Assembly: GCF_009908265.2 (NCBI RefSeq)
Contig: NZ_JAAATX020000003.1
Span: 186,001 to 250,000 of the forward strand
DNA from: Paragemmobacter amnigenus
GTDB lineage: Bacteria > Pseudomonadota > Alphaproteobacteria > Rhodobacterales > Rhodobacteraceae
Direction: 5' to 3'
DNA: 64,000 bases
Shown here: positions 12,012-52,472 of the stretch, piece by piece
Layout: the number at the start of each line of letters is the position of its first letter
Position numbering within the stretch: position 1 is the stretch's first letter
Notes under the pieces: model-generated
What the model saw: the letters and a program-made list of their open reading frames with translations, nothing else
Database searches by the model: none
What the model was told of the DNA's origin: nothing
Made by a program: the position numbers and the translations under genes

Positions 12012-12833
12012 TCAGGCCTGAACGGCCTGCGGCGGGTGGCCATCATGCGTGGCCATGTATCCTTCAATCTCGCCCTCCAGCGAAGCCATCGACGCCCCGC
12101 CTGCCATAAGATCGGTGATCTCTTCCCGCGTCTTCTCGCCCTTGCGGAAATCGGCGGCCACCGCACCACGGATCAGCACGGCGAAGTGGTCACCCACGGC
12201 CATGGCATGCATCACCTGATGGGTGATGAAGATCACGGCCAGACCCCGCCGCTTCGCCTCGTTTACGATGCGCAGGACGTGGGTCGCTTGCTTCACGCCA
12301 AGGGCTGCGGTGGGTTCGTCAAGGATCAGGACACGCGCGCCGAAATGCACGGCGCGGGCGATGGCCAGCGACTGGCGTTCCCCACCCGACAGGCCACCGA
12401 CCAGACGGTCGCCGTCGGTGATGCGGGTGATCCCCATGTCCTGCACGGCCTTGACCGCGATGGCATTGGCGCGGGCGCGATCATAGATCTTGAACGGCCC
12501 CCAGCCCTTGGTGGGTTCGACGCCGACAAAGAAGCTGCGCCCGATCGACATCAGGGGGAAGGTTCCGCCGAATTGGTGGACGGTGGAAATCCCCGCCTCC
12601 TGCGCGACACGGGGCGCAGGGAATATCACCTCTTTCCCGTCAAGCTCGATTGTCCCCGTGGTGGGCTGGTGGACACCGGACAGGATCTTGATCAGCGTCG
12701 ACTTGCCAGCACCGTTGTCGCCCAGAAGACAAAGCACCTCACCGGGCCGCACTTCCAGATTGATGTCATGCAGGACGTCGATGGGACCGAAGGACTTGTT
12801 GATGTTCTTCAGCGCAAGGATGGGAGCGGTCAT
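12012..12833 (-). CDS. Sugar/cyclitol ABC importer, ATP-binding subunit
   Basis: 273 aa, a single ATPase domain. Walker A is LLGDNGAGKSTLIK (about 37-50), signature LSGGERQ (about 148), Walker B RVLILDEPTAALG (about 167-179) and switch His in FITHQ. RbsA-type proteins have two such domains; this has one, as in the frc and related carbohydrate importers. It pairs with the permease one base upstream. It powers uptake of the operon's substrate across the inner membrane. Confidence 0.93.
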   Translation of the reverse strand: MTAPILALKNINKSFGPIDVLHDINLEVRPGEVLCLLGDNGAGKSTLIKILSGVHQPTTGTIELDGKEVIFPAPRVAQEAGISTVHQFGGTFPLMSIGRSFFVGVEPTKGWGPFKIYDRARANAIAVKAVQDMGITRITDGDRLVGGLSGGERQSLAIARAVHFGARVLILDEPTAALGVKQATHVLRIVNEAKRRGLAVIFITHQVMHAMAVGDHFAVLIRGAVAADFRKGEKTREEITDLMAGGASMASLEGEIEGYMATHDGHPPQAVQA

Positions 12834-12834
12834 G

Positions 12835-13887
12835 TCAGGCCCCTTTCTTCTTGGTCGTGGCCGAAAGGGCCATCTTGCGGAAGGTGTTGTTCATCAGCAC
12901 AGCCAGCAGCAGCAGCACTCCGATGATCAGGGCCGACCAGTTCCGGTCGAAATCGGTGTAATAGATGCCCTGATTGACGATGGCGAAGGTGATCGTGCCG
13001 AAGAAGATCCCCACCACCGACCCGAAGCCCCCGGTCAGCAGCACGCCACCCACGACGACCGAGATGATCGAGTTGAAGATGAAGCTCTGCCCGCCCGCGA
13101 CCTGCGCCGAGTTGTAGAGGATCGCCTGGCACATCCCCACGAAGGCGGCGGATGTGGACGAGAGAACGAAGAGAAGGATCGTCATACGGTCCGTCGGGAT
13201 ACCAGCATTCCGCGCTGAAACCTTGTCGCCCCCCATGGCGAAGATCCAGTTCCCCTTGGGCGAGAAGTGGATGAAGAACACATAGGCCGCCGTCAGCACC
13301 AGCCACCAGATCACCATGACCTGCAGCTGCCCGCCGAACAGGAAGTCGCCGAAGATCACCTTCGCCGGACCCTCGACCGTCAGAGCGACAGAGGTGGATT
13401 TGGTGATCAGCACGGTCAGGCCCAGCACGATGCCCTGCACCGCAAACAGGCTGCCCAGCGTCACGATCAGCGACGGCACGGCGGTGCGGATCACCATGTA
13501 TCCGTTGATCAGACCCACCGTCACGCCGAAGGCCATCGTCACCGCAATGCCCAGCCAGATCGACATACCGTAGTGGCCGGAGATGACGGCCACCGTCATC
13601 GCCCCGAATGGCACCATCGCACCGACGGAGATATCGAGTTCCCCTGCGATCATCAGCAGCCCCACCGGAATGGCGATGATGCCAAGGTTCGCGGCCACGT
13701 TCAGCCAGCTCGACATGCCCGCAGGCTTCAGGAAGGTCAGCCCGCCGAAGGCTGCAAAGAAGATCAGGACGGCCAGAAGGCCCAGAAACGCCCCCGCCTC
13801 GGGGCGGCGCAGAAGGCTGCCGAGCGACAGGTTCGATCCGTGCGCTGGCATGGCCTCGACAGGCCGGCTTGCTGTGGTGGAGGTCAT
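12835..13887 (-). CDS. Sugar/cyclitol ABC importer, permease (RbsC family)
   Basis: 350 aa from the ATG at 13887 (MTSTTASRPVEAMPAHG); the frame extends further upstream without support. It is a hydrophobic protein with about eight to ten membrane segments, beginning GAFLGLLAVLIFFAAFGG, and with the conserved loop GELDISVGAM and the later GGVLLTGGFGSVVG typical of ribose/inositol-type permeases. It forms the importer with the ATPase downstream and the binding protein upstream. Confidence 0.92.
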   Translation of the reverse strand: MTSTTASRPVEAMPAHGSNLSLGSLLRRPEAGAFLGLLAVLIFFAAFGGLTFLKPAGMSSWLNVAANLGIIAIPVGLLMIAGELDISVGAMVPFGAMTVAVISGHYGMSIWLGIAVTMAFGVTVGLINGYMVIRTAVPSLIVTLGSLFAVQGIVLGLTVLITKSTSVALTVEGPAKVIFGDFLFGGQLQVMVIWWLVLTAAYVFFIHFSPKGNWIFAMGGDKVSARNAGIPTDRMTILLFVLSSTSAAFVGMCQAILYNSAQVAGGQSFIFNSIISVVVGGVLLTGGFGSVVGIFFGTITFAIVNQGIYYTDFDRNWSALIIGVLLLLAVLMNNTFRKMALSATTKKKGA

Positions 13888-13941
13888 GGCGTTTCCCTTT
13901 CCGTCAGACCGTAGGTGACGCGCGCTGCGTCGGCAGGAATG

Positions 13942-13967
13942 TCCGGCCCACCCTCTGGTGGGCCGGA
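13942..13967. repeat. Stem-loop between binding-protein and permease genes
   Basis: Perfect 11-bp arms (TCCGGCCCACC / GGTGGGCCGGA) around a CTCT loop. Stable hairpins here often let the binding-protein mRNA outlast the rest. Stems beginning TCCGGCC recur at 19752 and 25566. Confidence 0.65.
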
Positions 13968-13978
13968 TGGTCAACGTA

Positions 13979-14950
13979 TCAGCGTGCGCCCTTGGCGACA
14001 CCGGCCAGCGTCGCGTCGATGTTCGACGCATCCACGATCCCCGGTCCGGTCAGCACCGGGAAGATCGGCAGATCGGTGCCGAAGTCGATATGCGAGGCCA
14101 GCAAGCTGACGGCGAGGTAGGATTGCAGGTAGGGCTGCTGGTCGATCGAGAAGAGCTGCGTGCCACCCTTGATCCGGTCCAGACCCGCCTGGTTCATGTC
14201 GAAGGAACCCAGCAGCGTGGTGCCGGTCTTGCCTGCCTGCTCGACCGCGATCGCCGCGCTATCCGCGTCGCCAGCCGAGATGGTGATGACCCCGTCAATG
14301 GTTTCGTCTTTCAGCAGTTCGGCCTTGATCGCCTCGGCAACCGCCGTCGCGTCCCCAAAGCTGGTGGACGGAAGCGGAAGCTGCGCGCCCTTGCCACCCT
14401 TGCCGGTGATCCCGTCGATCACGCCCTTGCAGCGGGCTTCGATATTCGCGGTGCCGGGAAGCGTATTGATGCACAGGACGTTCTTCTGCCCATTGTCACC
14501 GAAGTATTCGCCGCCCGCGACGCCAGCCACATATTCATCCGACCCGACATAGTTGATCGCGCCCAGTTCGCGGGCCTTCTCGGCCCCGCCCGCGTTCATC
14601 AGGATGACCTTGATGCCCGCCGCGATGGCATCCTTGATCGCCGGATCTTCGGCTTCCGGCACCCAGTTCGGGATCACGAGTCCATCCACTTCCATGCTGA
14701 TCGCGGTGCGGATCAGTTGCACGACGTCGGGGGCGAAGTTGTCGTAATTCACGAGGCGCAGGTAGTTCACCGAACCGCCATTCGCTTCCACCATCGGGGT
14801 CGCGTCGTCGATGCCCTTCTTGATGATGTTCCAGAAGGCATCATCGTTCGATCCGCCCACGACAGCGATATCCGCCGCCATCGAGGCGCTGCCCGCGAAG
14901 GCGACAAGCGCGGTCGTGGCAAGGACCTTCGTCAGGTTTGCAAGTCTCAT
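13979..14950 (-). CDS. Periplasmic sugar/cyclitol-binding protein (RbsB/MocB type)
   Basis: 323 aa. The N-terminal signal peptide is clear: basic MRLANLTK, hydrophobic core VLATTALVAFAG and likely cleavage after SMA. The mature protein starts with the periplasmic-binding strand DIAVVGGSNDDAFWNIIKKG, and continues with GIKVILMNAGG and DGVITISAGDADSAAIAVEQ, as in family 4 binding proteins for ribose, inositol and rhizopine. It delivers ligand to the permease encoded next. Confidence 0.93.
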   Translation of the reverse strand: MRLANLTKVLATTALVAFAGSASMAADIAVVGGSNDDAFWNIIKKGIDDATPMVEANGGSVNYLRLVNYDNFAPDVVQLIRTAISMEVDGLVIPNWVPEAEDPAIKDAIAAGIKVILMNAGGAEKARELGAINYVGSDEYVAGVAGGEYFGDNGQKNVLCINTLPGTANIEARCKGVIDGITGKGGKGAQLPLPSTSFGDATAVAEAIKAELLKDETIDGVITISAGDADSAAIAVEQAGKTGTTLLGSFDMNQAGLDRIKGGTQLFSIDQQPYLQSYLAVSLLASHIDFGTDLPIFPVLTGPGIVDASNIDATLAGVAKGAR

Positions 14951-17371: not shown

Positions 17372-17552
17372 GGCGACGGTCTGCTTTCCAATGTGACGTA
17401 GGGCAGCTATGGGCCGATCGCTGCCGAAACCGAGCAACGCAAACGGTGGGACAGAGAAAGATTGGAACACGGCCGGATGAGACCGGGCCTCAACACCCAA
17501 AAGCACATCCCGACGATCGTCCCGCTACCTTTCAATTAATGAGATTCTTGGG

Positions 17553-20279: not shown

Positions 20280-20651
20280 TCATGCCGCGCGCTCCGGCAT
20301 GATGGACGGCGAAAGATCGGCAGGCAGGCCTCCGATGCGGTCGGCGAGGCCGTCGGACAGCATGCAGATCTCGTAAACGACGGGATCCGCAGGATCGATC
20401 GCCGCGAAATGGACGCTCTCGTCACAGTCTGGATCACCTACATGTTCGAGCGACAGCAGTCCGTGCAGAACCTTCAGTTCGCGGACATGTCGACGGGTCA
20501 GCTGACCATCAGACATCAGGTCAGCCACCAGCCTTGCTGTGCGGCGACGGGCAGGCAGACCGCCGAGAAGGAGCGACGCGTTGATCAGCGCGTCGCCGTT
20601 CTCGTAGACCCAGGCGAGCAGAAGGGCGATGGCAGGGTGAAAGTGAAGCAT
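20280..20651 (-). CDS. Hypothetical protein, 123 aa
   Basis: ATG at 20651 with GGGAG six bases before it. Not recognised. The N-terminal half (LHFHPAIALLLAWVYENG, then SLLLGGLPARRRTARLVADL) looks like an amphipathic helical domain, the C-terminal half is acidic. It is the first gene after the hairpin closing the recombinase operon and probably shares transcription with the 19784-20206 gene. Confidence 0.6.
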   Translation of the reverse strand: MLHFHPAIALLLAWVYENGDALINASLLLGGLPARRRTARLVADLMSDGQLTRRHVRELKVLHGLLSLEHVGDPDCDESVHFAAIDPADPVVYEICMLSDGLADRIGGLPADLSPSIMPERAA

Positions 20652-24044: not shown

Positions 24045-24098
24045 CCTGCTTCTTTCGCCGCGCCCGTCACCTTGGGCGGGCGCGGCGAAAGAAGCAGG
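24045..24098. repeat. Perfect 22-bp inverted repeat, 10-base centre, in the recombinase leader
   Basis: Arms 24045-24066 and 24077-24098 are exact reverse complements (outer end CCTGCTTCTTTCGCCG). The site starts 23 bases upstream of the recombinase A start codon. It may be a recombination site, a regulator site, or an RNA hairpin limiting recombinase translation. Confidence 0.85.
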
Positions 24099-24157: not shown

Positions 24158-24210
24158 TACACAAAGACCACGTGGTTTTTCCGACCCAAAAACAACGTGG
24201 TGTTTGTGTA
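24158..24210. repeat. 23-bp inverted repeat (21/23 matching) with 7-base centre
   Basis: Arms 24158-24180 and 24188-24210 match at 21 of 23 positions around CCGACCC; the inner ends are TTTTT and AAAAA and each arm carries a CACGT- or ACGTGG-type core. Inverted arms around a 6-8 base asymmetric centre are the classic layout of tyrosine-recombinase crossover sites. It lies in the recombinase operon between the 24214 stop and the 24045 palindrome. Confidence 0.8.
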
Positions 24211-25674: not shown

Positions 25675-27006
25675 CTATCTTGATGCGCCAAGGCGCGGCA
25701 TCATCCTGTCCGGTTGACGAGCATCGACCCGGAACAGCTCATCCAACTCAGCCATCAACACCGCAACGCTGCCGATCCCCACGCAAGCAGTCTCCAGAAC
25801 CGTGTCCCGCCCCGTGATCCGGTTCCGCGCCAACACAACGGGCGATCCGTCCAGCCCCTGATGCCGGGGATACAGCAGCGTCAGGCGGGCCGTCCCATAA
25901 AGATGACCATAGGCCATCATCTGGTACACGTCGCTTTGGGAAACCCCGTGTTTCCTGTCGTCCACCCGTGCCGCGATCCGCTTCCACTTCGTATCGATGA
26001 TGTGGACCACCTCACGACCGCGCCGGATGATGATGTCGGGTTTCGTCTGGAACAGACCGCGCCCGTCAGGCTCCGACGTCAGGCAGAACAACCGGCCGCC
26101 CTGCAGATGGACGGAAAACTCCGTCCCCCGCAGGCGGCGCGCGATCAACCGGCCCACATATTCCTCGAACAGGGCGTTCATTTCGAACAGCAGCGCAGTG
26201 CCTTGTCCTGCGCCCGCACTGGTCGTCTGGTATCTTCCGAACAGGAACAGCCGCGCCATGTCCAGCAACTCGGCCCATGACCGGTTCGTCCGGTCGAGAA
26301 TTACCTCGTCCCACCGCAGTGCAGCCGGCGGCACATCCGTGATATCGGCATATACGAAGCCCAGCTCCCGCAGCTTCTGGACGTTCGCCGCACTTCTCGA
26401 GACACGGGAAAGATGCCCGATCGTCGCCTTCAGGATCCGGTTCAAGGCGATGTCTCCGGACAGCTCATCGAACCGGCAGGCGAGGCGGGACGGATTGACC
26501 GCATGCCGCGTGAACTGCCGCGTCACGTCGAGTGCCCCGCGAAGGGCAGGCAGATCATCCTCGTCCCGCCGATACTGACGCGGCATGCCCCGCCTGACCG
26601 CCTCGGTCAGCTTTTCGACAAAGACCCGGATCAGGATCTCCAGTAGCGTGTCACGCTGCCAGTCGAGCTCGGTCATCCGCCCAAGGTCAATCCGCAAGTC
26701 CAAGGCTACGGCCAGCATATGGATCAGACGCTTCCGGATCACCGCGTCGCGGGCCGTCGGGTCGGCTTCGTCCACATCGATCTTCGGCAGGATTTCCAGT
26801 GCCCCCTGCGGCGCAGCGATAACGCCCACCACACCCCGCGCCCGGATGTGCTTGCGGTGTTCCTCCAGCACGCCCTGCCCACCGCTTCCGGCAAGGGGCG
26901 ATGACCGCGCGACTTCCGCCAGCCGTGCGGCCAGCGGCTCCGGTATCTGCCCCTCGCCCTCCCCGTAGGGCAGGCTTTCCCATTCCCGGATCGTGTAGGT
27001 CCGCAT
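25675..27006 (-). CDS. mcrC: McrC-family nuclease subunit of a McrBC-type system
   Basis: 443 aa from the ATG at 27006, overlapping the McrB stop by one base (TGATG). N-terminal IREWESLPYGEG leads into the McrC scaffold. The C-terminal PD-(D/E)XK nuclease core shows LFQTKPDIIIRRGREVVHIIDTKW split as D in KPDIII and D-T-K in IIDTKWK, followed by QSDVYQMMAYGHLY, the usual Q-x3-Y helix. McrC binds the McrB GTPase ring and cuts DNA with modified cytosine or otherwise recognised foreign DNA. Last gene of a four-gene operon. Confidence 0.9.
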   Translation of the reverse strand: MRTYTIREWESLPYGEGEGQIPEPLAARLAEVARSSPLAGSGGQGVLEEHRKHIRARGVVGVIAAPQGALEILPKIDVDEADPTARDAVIRKRLIHMLAVALDLRIDLGRMTELDWQRDTLLEILIRVFVEKLTEAVRRGMPRQYRRDEDDLPALRGALDVTRQFTRHAVNPSRLACRFDELSGDIALNRILKATIGHLSRVSRSAANVQKLRELGFVYADITDVPPAALRWDEVILDRTNRSWAELLDMARLFLFGRYQTTSAGAGQGTALLFEMNALFEEYVGRLIARRLRGTEFSVHLQGGRLFCLTSEPDGRGLFQTKPDIIIRRGREVVHIIDTKWKRIAARVDDRKHGVSQSDVYQMMAYGHLYGTARLTLLYPRHQGLDGSPVVLARNRITGRDTVLETACVGIGSVAVLMAELDELFRVDARQPDRMMPRLGASR

Positions 27007-51981: not shown

Positions 51982-52396
51982 CTGAATTCGGTCGAGAAAA
52001 GATCACAAGCAGGGATTGTGTCAAGACGGGCTCGGTTAAACCTTACCCCTCACTGAGGGGCCGCCGTTCAGATGCGGCAATTCGACTGCGTCAGCGTGGC
52101 ATTCACATCCGGTTCGGCCGGGTGCTCGATACCCTCAATTGCTGTTCCGCCACGACTTGCTGAATGCGAATGACCCAAAGTTCGTCCGCTTCCAACGCGT
52201 CCGAAAATGACCTCGCCAAGCTCGATTCTTTTCCCGCTCCACCGCTCCCCAAAACCCGCACAACACTCTTCCCCCGCGCCCTCCCGTCATGCATTCTCCC
52301 GCATAAATGAAGTCCAATTGAAGTCCAGAACCCCAAACCGCAGGAGAACCGCGCCAGGCCAGGCAGAGCAACTATCTGATTTTATTGGGATTTAAG
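51982..52396. other. Intergenic region between helicase gene and tRNA-Phe
   Basis: About 415 bases with no convincing gene. A 15-bp perfect dyad (CCCCTCA-C-TGAGGGG, 52046-52060) is present. Being at the 3' side of tRNA-Phe, it should contain the island/chromosome junction if the island integrated there. Confidence 0.5.
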
Positions 52397-52472
52397 TGGT
52401 GCCCAGAGCCGGAATCGAACCAGCGACACGCGGATTTTCAATCCGCTGCTCTACCAACTGAGCTATCTGGGC
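52397..52472 (-). tRNA. tRNA-Phe (anticodon GAA)
   Basis: 76 nt with encoded CCA. The acceptor stem GCCCAGA pairs with TCTGGGC, the D-arm contains AGCTCAGTTGGTAGAGC, the anticodon arm is CGGAT-TGAAAAT-CCG with GAA, and the T-loop is GGTTCGATTCC. The 3' end points toward the accessory region, the usual orientation for tRNA genes used as integration sites. Confidence 0.97.

Follow-up and report, generated by a model that had tools for sequence, protein, structure and literature searches.

A putative core site for two tyrosine recombinases within an HTH-recombinase module of the Rhodobacterales

Described recombinase systems and their resemblance to the locus

The loxP site consists of inverted arms around an asymmetric 8-bp spacer and is located near the gene encoding the Cre tyrosine recombinase. 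For resolution, the TnpI/IRS system of Tn4430 employs a core dyad plus direct repeats located 5' of its recombinase gene, and the dif site, which measures about 28 bp and possesses a 6-bp center, is not located beside the xer genes in E. coli. Strand-biased circularizing elements (SEs) encode two RHRY recombinases and possess an attS in which inverted motifs surround a 6-bp spacer derived from the flanks (PMC9345347, PMC10214605), the SE circle carrying C, the 6-bp spacer, and C' (PMC9345347). GInts (ginABCD) represent the recombinase operon of a genomic island and yield attachment-site variants on excision (PMC5385486).

The window (i.e., the whole 64,000-nucleotide stretch analyzed here) harbors a module which specifies, in order, an HTH protein, Int1, and Int2, with a dyad between the HTH gene and int1. 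As in Cre/loxP of phage P1, inverted arms surround an asymmetric spacer near a recombinase gene, and the best PDB matches of the Int2 model are to Cre (E 8.5e-5); unlike in that system, two recombinases and an HTH protein are encoded, the dyad extends over about 53 bp with a center of 7 rather than 8 bp, and phased repeats are present in relatives. With TnpI/IRS the module shares a core dyad and direct repeats upstream of a recombinase gene (the repeats here being those of relatives), but it encodes two recombinases, is devoid of a Tn3-type transposase, and has, in relatives, its repeats on either side of the dyad. Similarity to Xer/dif consists in the weak matches of Int1 to XerC/XerD models and in the fact that two recombinases could take one arm each, whereas the large accessory region and the mobile setting differ.

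Two recombinases and inverted motifs around a short spacer are also features of SEs, the core of which reads intA-tfp-intB-srap with terminal motifs at the element ends, whereas the present module reads HTH-int1-int2 and possesses a 7-bp center within an unsplit internal site. Membership of the SEs was rejected on the two features compared, this gene order and the absence of terminal copies near the modules. The GInts are similar in being a recombinase operon of an island with site variants, but possess three integrases plus GinD and 10- to 11-nt direct-repeat ends, and no such ends were found here: most loci encode two recombinases (locus L094 possesses a third long open reading frame [ORF]), and the ends of the L046/L048 block were not found.

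The dyad of the window and the genes surrounding it

The imperfect dyad (positions 24158 to 24210; minus strand), which is proposed as the core site of Int1/Int2, is composed of two 23-bp arms (24158 to 24180 and 24188 to 24210) matching at 21 of 23 positions and an asymmetric 7-bp center (24181 to 24187; minus strand), the proposed overlap (crossover) region, which reads CCGACCC on the forward strand and GGGTCGG in the int1 sense. Its arm symmetry exceeds the best of every one of 30 random windows (first-order Markov, 64 kb, scanned for 23-bp arms with loops of 3 to 12), each of which topped at 16 to 19 of 23, and a half-site pattern allowing up to 3 mismatches matches the two arms alone within the window (shuffle expectation, 0.00). 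The geometry put forward in the original prediction was thus borne out, as was its placement of the dyad between a DNA-binding gene and two recombinase-like genes, here assigned as HTH (24798 to 24214), Int1 (24022 to 22229), and Int2 (22232 to 20847), each of them on the minus strand. The dyad begins 3 bp past the HTH stop codon, and the Int1 start (24022) follows 136 bp downstream of it.

The HTH gene product, assigned by profile, AF2 model, and synteny, comprises 194 amino acids and two predicted winged-helix units (Xis/MerR-like). It matches the NCBIfam model Xis_Gifsy_1 with an E value of 0.0016, below the cut-off of that model, and its AF2 model (mean pLDDT, 71) consists of two winged-helix-like units and a disordered tail. 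MerR, BldC, and Xis folds ranked first in comparisons with this model, all weakly and none at E 0.001 or better, the match to Pukovnik Xis (E 0.57; TM 0.74 by target) being a weak one.

Int1 (597 amino acids) is, judging by its conserved catalytic residues (R429, K465, H536, R539, and Y572), a tyrosine recombinase; the corresponding R, K, H-x-x-R, and Y are invariant in 23/23 proteins and, in a second count, in 17/17. Its match to the Pfam integrase model is weak (E 3.9e-5, below cut-off), and members of the Int1 family match the XerC, XerD, and integron-integrase models. Int2 (461 amino acids) is likewise assigned as a tyrosine recombinase, on the basis of its residues (R298, K328, R407, and Y440) and of the fold of its predicted model (mean pLDDT, 84.8; pTM, 0.58). 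Among its relatives, R and K are retained in 21/21 and the second R and Y in 20/21, while the H is not invariant, and searches of Pfam returned no match for the window protein or for any of 15 family members. Some modules additionally specify P3, a 123-amino-acid accessory protein (20280 to 20651 in the window; minus strand); 6 of 34 loci encode a homologue of it 3' of int2.

The int1 leader harbors a second inverted repeat, not mentioned in the original prediction, between the dyad and int1 (24045 to 24098; minus strand), with perfect 22-bp arms and a 10-nt loop, which is probably an RNA hairpin (RNA fold of -48.8 kcal/mol; z, -8.7) and which is present as a single copy in the genome. An imperfect hairpin between int2 and P3 (20772 to 20826), matching at 19/23 positions, resembles this repeat in sequence, its score by itself being inside the random range. 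Upstream of the module, positions 25675 to 51981 constitute a defence island which ends near a tRNA-Phe at 52397 and whose content comprises McrC, an AAA protein, a nuclease-helicase, a C5 methylase, MzaB, MzaC, DUF4420, MzaE, and a DUF4011/MTES_1575 helicase.

Recurrence of the module and its site in relatives

In this analysis the module was found only in Rhodobacterales, to which the named matches belong and in which the order HTH, site, Int1, and Int2 recurs. Of 394 genomes sampled from the family of the window, 35 contained Int1 relatives, as did 4 of 19 genomes of its genus (including its own), although the weak E-value end of the Int1 searches may take in some unrelated integrases. A sample of 398 genomes from across the phylum gave matches to the Int2 model in 3, all of that same family and the window's own genome among them. 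Among 72,556 plasmid records, 9 matched the Int1 of the window and 16, some only in part, matched that of a relative; phages yielded no match, and no relative was present in viral contigs, which were searched with group-B patterns only. In 21 of 23 neighborhoods, an open frame for Int2 adjoins int1. In 33 of 34 loci, int1 is preceded by an HTH homologue on the same strand, a count obtained with a profile rebuilt from its own matches (first pass, 32) and in which L051 and L101 represent one genome. In L092, an IS element sits between the HTH gene and int1. One genome (G321) harbors three Int2 relatives (on C10, C18, and C45), and the third ORF of L094, a Thioclava plasmid, encodes 661 amino acids (12431 to 14416) directly 3' of int2 and near SAVED and nucleotidyltransferase genes.

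The best odd-axis dyad of each int1 leader was selected by arm symmetry alone across 41 mutually related loci (L018, which duplicates L102, having been dropped from an initial 42). In 30 of the 41, the center conformed to GGNNNNG (18) or ACNGGNG (12), in all cases in the int1 sense and in none on the other strand, compared with 2.0% (GGNNNNG) and 0% (ACNGGNG) of 615 shuffled leaders, the two patterns having been written post hoc after a first listing of the loci. Eleven leaders did not fit (L003, L007, L011, L012, L016, L019, L023, L026, L030, L031, and L094), the leader of L007 having been wrongly set: its genome, also included as L101, does show the site. Among seven loci fetched later, four fit the pattern (L133, L135, L136, and L137; P about 5e-6 at the shuffle rate) and three (L134, L138, and L139) did not by the blind rule. 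The arms of L137, which stems from the genus of the window, resemble those of the window, and its HTH protein is 43% identical. The predicted core-site geometry upstream of int1 is, therefore, upheld in relatives whose arm sequences differ, and, by sequence, the dyad is of the core-site type, with inverted arms around a fixed 7-bp asymmetric center (the pattern being post hoc). In the leaders of L098 and L041, a second dyad is located beside the first (e.g., GCGCTTT-GGCGACT-TAAAGCGC in L098).

A regulatory RNA hairpin in the int1 leader, acting as an attenuator or processing signal, would equally possess paired arms, and the dyad of the window does fold well as RNA from either strand (-23.8 and -25.0 kcal/mol; z, -4.3 and -5.4) with a 7-nt loop of a usual size; any dyad folds, however. 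Across the 30 sites, pairing is good at arm positions 1, 3 to 6, and 12 to 23 and poor at positions 2 and 7 to 11, and the mismatched cells (of 690) comprise 29 of the G-U type, 52 of the A-C type, and 118 others. Since G-U-type mismatches are fewer than those of the A-C type, the reverse of what a conserved int1-sense stem would produce, an RNA stem is disfavored. The sole Rfam match, a weak one to an miRNA, concerned the second inverted repeat (24045 to 24098). A hairpin function of the dyad is, consequently, regarded as very improbable.

A direct repeat, A[AG]CG[AG][AC], which was picked after viewing the leaders, peaks near -55, -35, +40, and +60 from the center of the dyad, with 9, 13, 4, and 13 occurrences per 8-bp bin against a background of 0.57. 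The 12 group-B leaders carry it at 25 of their 48 phased places and the 22 remaining leaders at 17 of 88, the maxima of 2,000 offset controls being 4 and 6, respectively. The leader of the window contains no phased repeat by this motif, only loose look-alikes, and a de novo direct-repeat search of each leader singly was mostly not significant, whereas the pooled position test was.

Comparison of close pairs suggests that the center may change while its surroundings do not. The loci of two Limimaricola species (L099 and L100) differ by 90 substitutions in 21.8 kb, and the sole substitution between 8897 and 15119 is the third base of the center; L046 and L048 differ at center bases 3 and 6 and otherwise not at all from -58 to +99. 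The chance of such changes, calculated post hoc, is 0.004 and 0.007, respectively. As other close pairs (L090/L091, L017/L022, and L133/L046) retain an unchanged center, these changes are suggestive rather than proof. In L046/L048, identity drops sharply about 216 bp upstream of the core, inside the HTH gene, the leader and int1 being about 96% identical; by sequence, this drop looks like a recombination breakpoint.

The position of the dyad, in the leader between int1 and an HTH gene that is almost invariably upstream (33/34 loci), is also that expected of an operator, in which case the dyad and repeats would regulate int1-int2 only, through the HTH protein or through repression by the recombinases, and exchange would occur at another site. 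Phased repeats and a dyad upstream of an operon are typical of operators as well, the folds ranked first for the HTH model (MerR, BldC, and Xis, all weak) are compatible with such a role, and the dyad is present as a single copy with no partner site found. The sole locus without an HTH gene (L034) is, furthermore, also without a fitting dyad, but an IS21-type ATPase gene is located upstream and its Int1 is truncated. A conserved asymmetric center of 7 bp, its fixed orientation, and diverging arms exceed the needs of a plain operator, and the center changes in two close pairs likewise argue against a purely regulatory role, which is considered possible but on the unlikely side.

Copy number, element ends, and proposed function

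The dyad is single copy in the 4.14-Mb genome, whether sought as the whole site, half-site, or 19-bp core (each with up to 3 mismatches). Near 22 modules, no convincing second copy or half-copy was found: the best core matches in these neighborhoods reached 15 to 19 of 25 positions, compared with 15 to 18 in one shuffle each, the highest (L090) reaching 19 versus 16 in its shuffle. In seven genomes searched with the group-B core, the module's own site was recovered in four and none in G222 and G024, and elsewhere in the seven there were two 3-mismatch matches (G341:C215 and G137:C10). Among the loci examined, none displayed a split form of the dyad, which is intact on large chromosomal contigs.

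The original prediction had raised the possibility that the cassette inverts or excises neighboring DNA, which would call for two copies of the site. While the recombinase genes and the dyad do adjoin, the single, unsplit copy and the lack of convincing second copies in the 22 neighborhoods argue against this, and such a cassette is extremely improbable. What is supported of the original reading is the geometry of a tyrosine-recombinase core site, as the odd asymmetric center recurs in relatives and the catalytic residues are kept; inversion and excision are not supported.

Alternatively, the dyad might be the point at which the ends of a circular integrative element of SE-like type are joined (attP or attS); integration of this element would split the dyad and place HTH and int1 at opposite ends. 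The layout of the dyad is that of the attS of SEs (PMC9345347), GInt excision likewise yields attachment-site variants (PMC5385486), and the center varies here. Against this, the examined loci include no split form, second or half-copies do not exceed the shuffle level in most of the 22 neighborhoods, and an 8.5-kb block which L046 and L048 have in common at 90% identity ends without common direct or inverted words or repeats. A closed junction is, therefore, deemed improbable. Flank comparison placed the left backbone end at 17417 (G104 and G407) and the right end, at tRNA-Phe, at 52388 to 52397 in five of six matching relatives, G395 matching from 52002. Because the left flank sits at another place in other genomes, no empty site was obtained, and a genus-wide search for a clean one returned none.

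Diverging arms, a fixed 7-bp asymmetric center, flanking repeats, and two catalytic recombinases are together best read as a core site. We lean, if only slightly, toward the view that Int1/Int2 use a DNA site of which the 53-bp dyad forms the core, probably for crossover and likely in resolution or exchange, and that this site also controls int1-int2. Each arm would be occupied by a recombinase protomer, possibly Int1 on one arm and Int2 on the other, and the center would correspond to the overlap between the two strand cuts. The direct repeats of relatives, phased 20 bp apart on both sides, may serve as binding sites for the Xis/MerR-like HTH protein or for the recombinases, the DNA thereby being folded into a complex. 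Given its single, unsplit copy, the site most likely functions once a second copy arises, either in a dimer of its replicon or on another element, with resolution or exchange as the outcome, in the manner of Cre/loxP or TnpI/IRS; it may additionally control int1-int2 expression. We infer from these features that the site is bound and cut, that resolution follows, and that the HTH protein plays its part, and resolution or exchange with a copy on a different molecule is favored over integration or inversion. The module of the 14.9-kb plasmid pSC52_7, which is located beside replication, partition, and toxin-antitoxin genes, fits such a function; this plasmid module and the single copy only suggest a resolution system of the TnpI/IRS or Cre/loxP type, and plasmid resolution fails to explain the chromosomal copies of the module.

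More tentatively, and with considerable doubt, the module may be a self-contained unit of HTH protein, composite site, and two recombinases that differs from Xer/dif, Cre/loxP, SEs, and GInts. In such a unit, the arms would remain fixed while exchange with unlike partner sites rewrites the 7-bp overlap, so that the module would carry and edit its own target. No description of this HTH-site-Int1-Int2 module was found in the literature covered, which excludes most subscription journals. If the core-site reading is right, the crossover point is predicted to the base for a new recombinase/site pair, and recombinase modules mostly labelled hypothetical in databases would gain a defined substrate and two enzymes. 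Since plasmids as well as a defence island harbor such modules, the way in which these islands and plasmids are resolved or exchanged in marine alphaproteobacteria would become testable.
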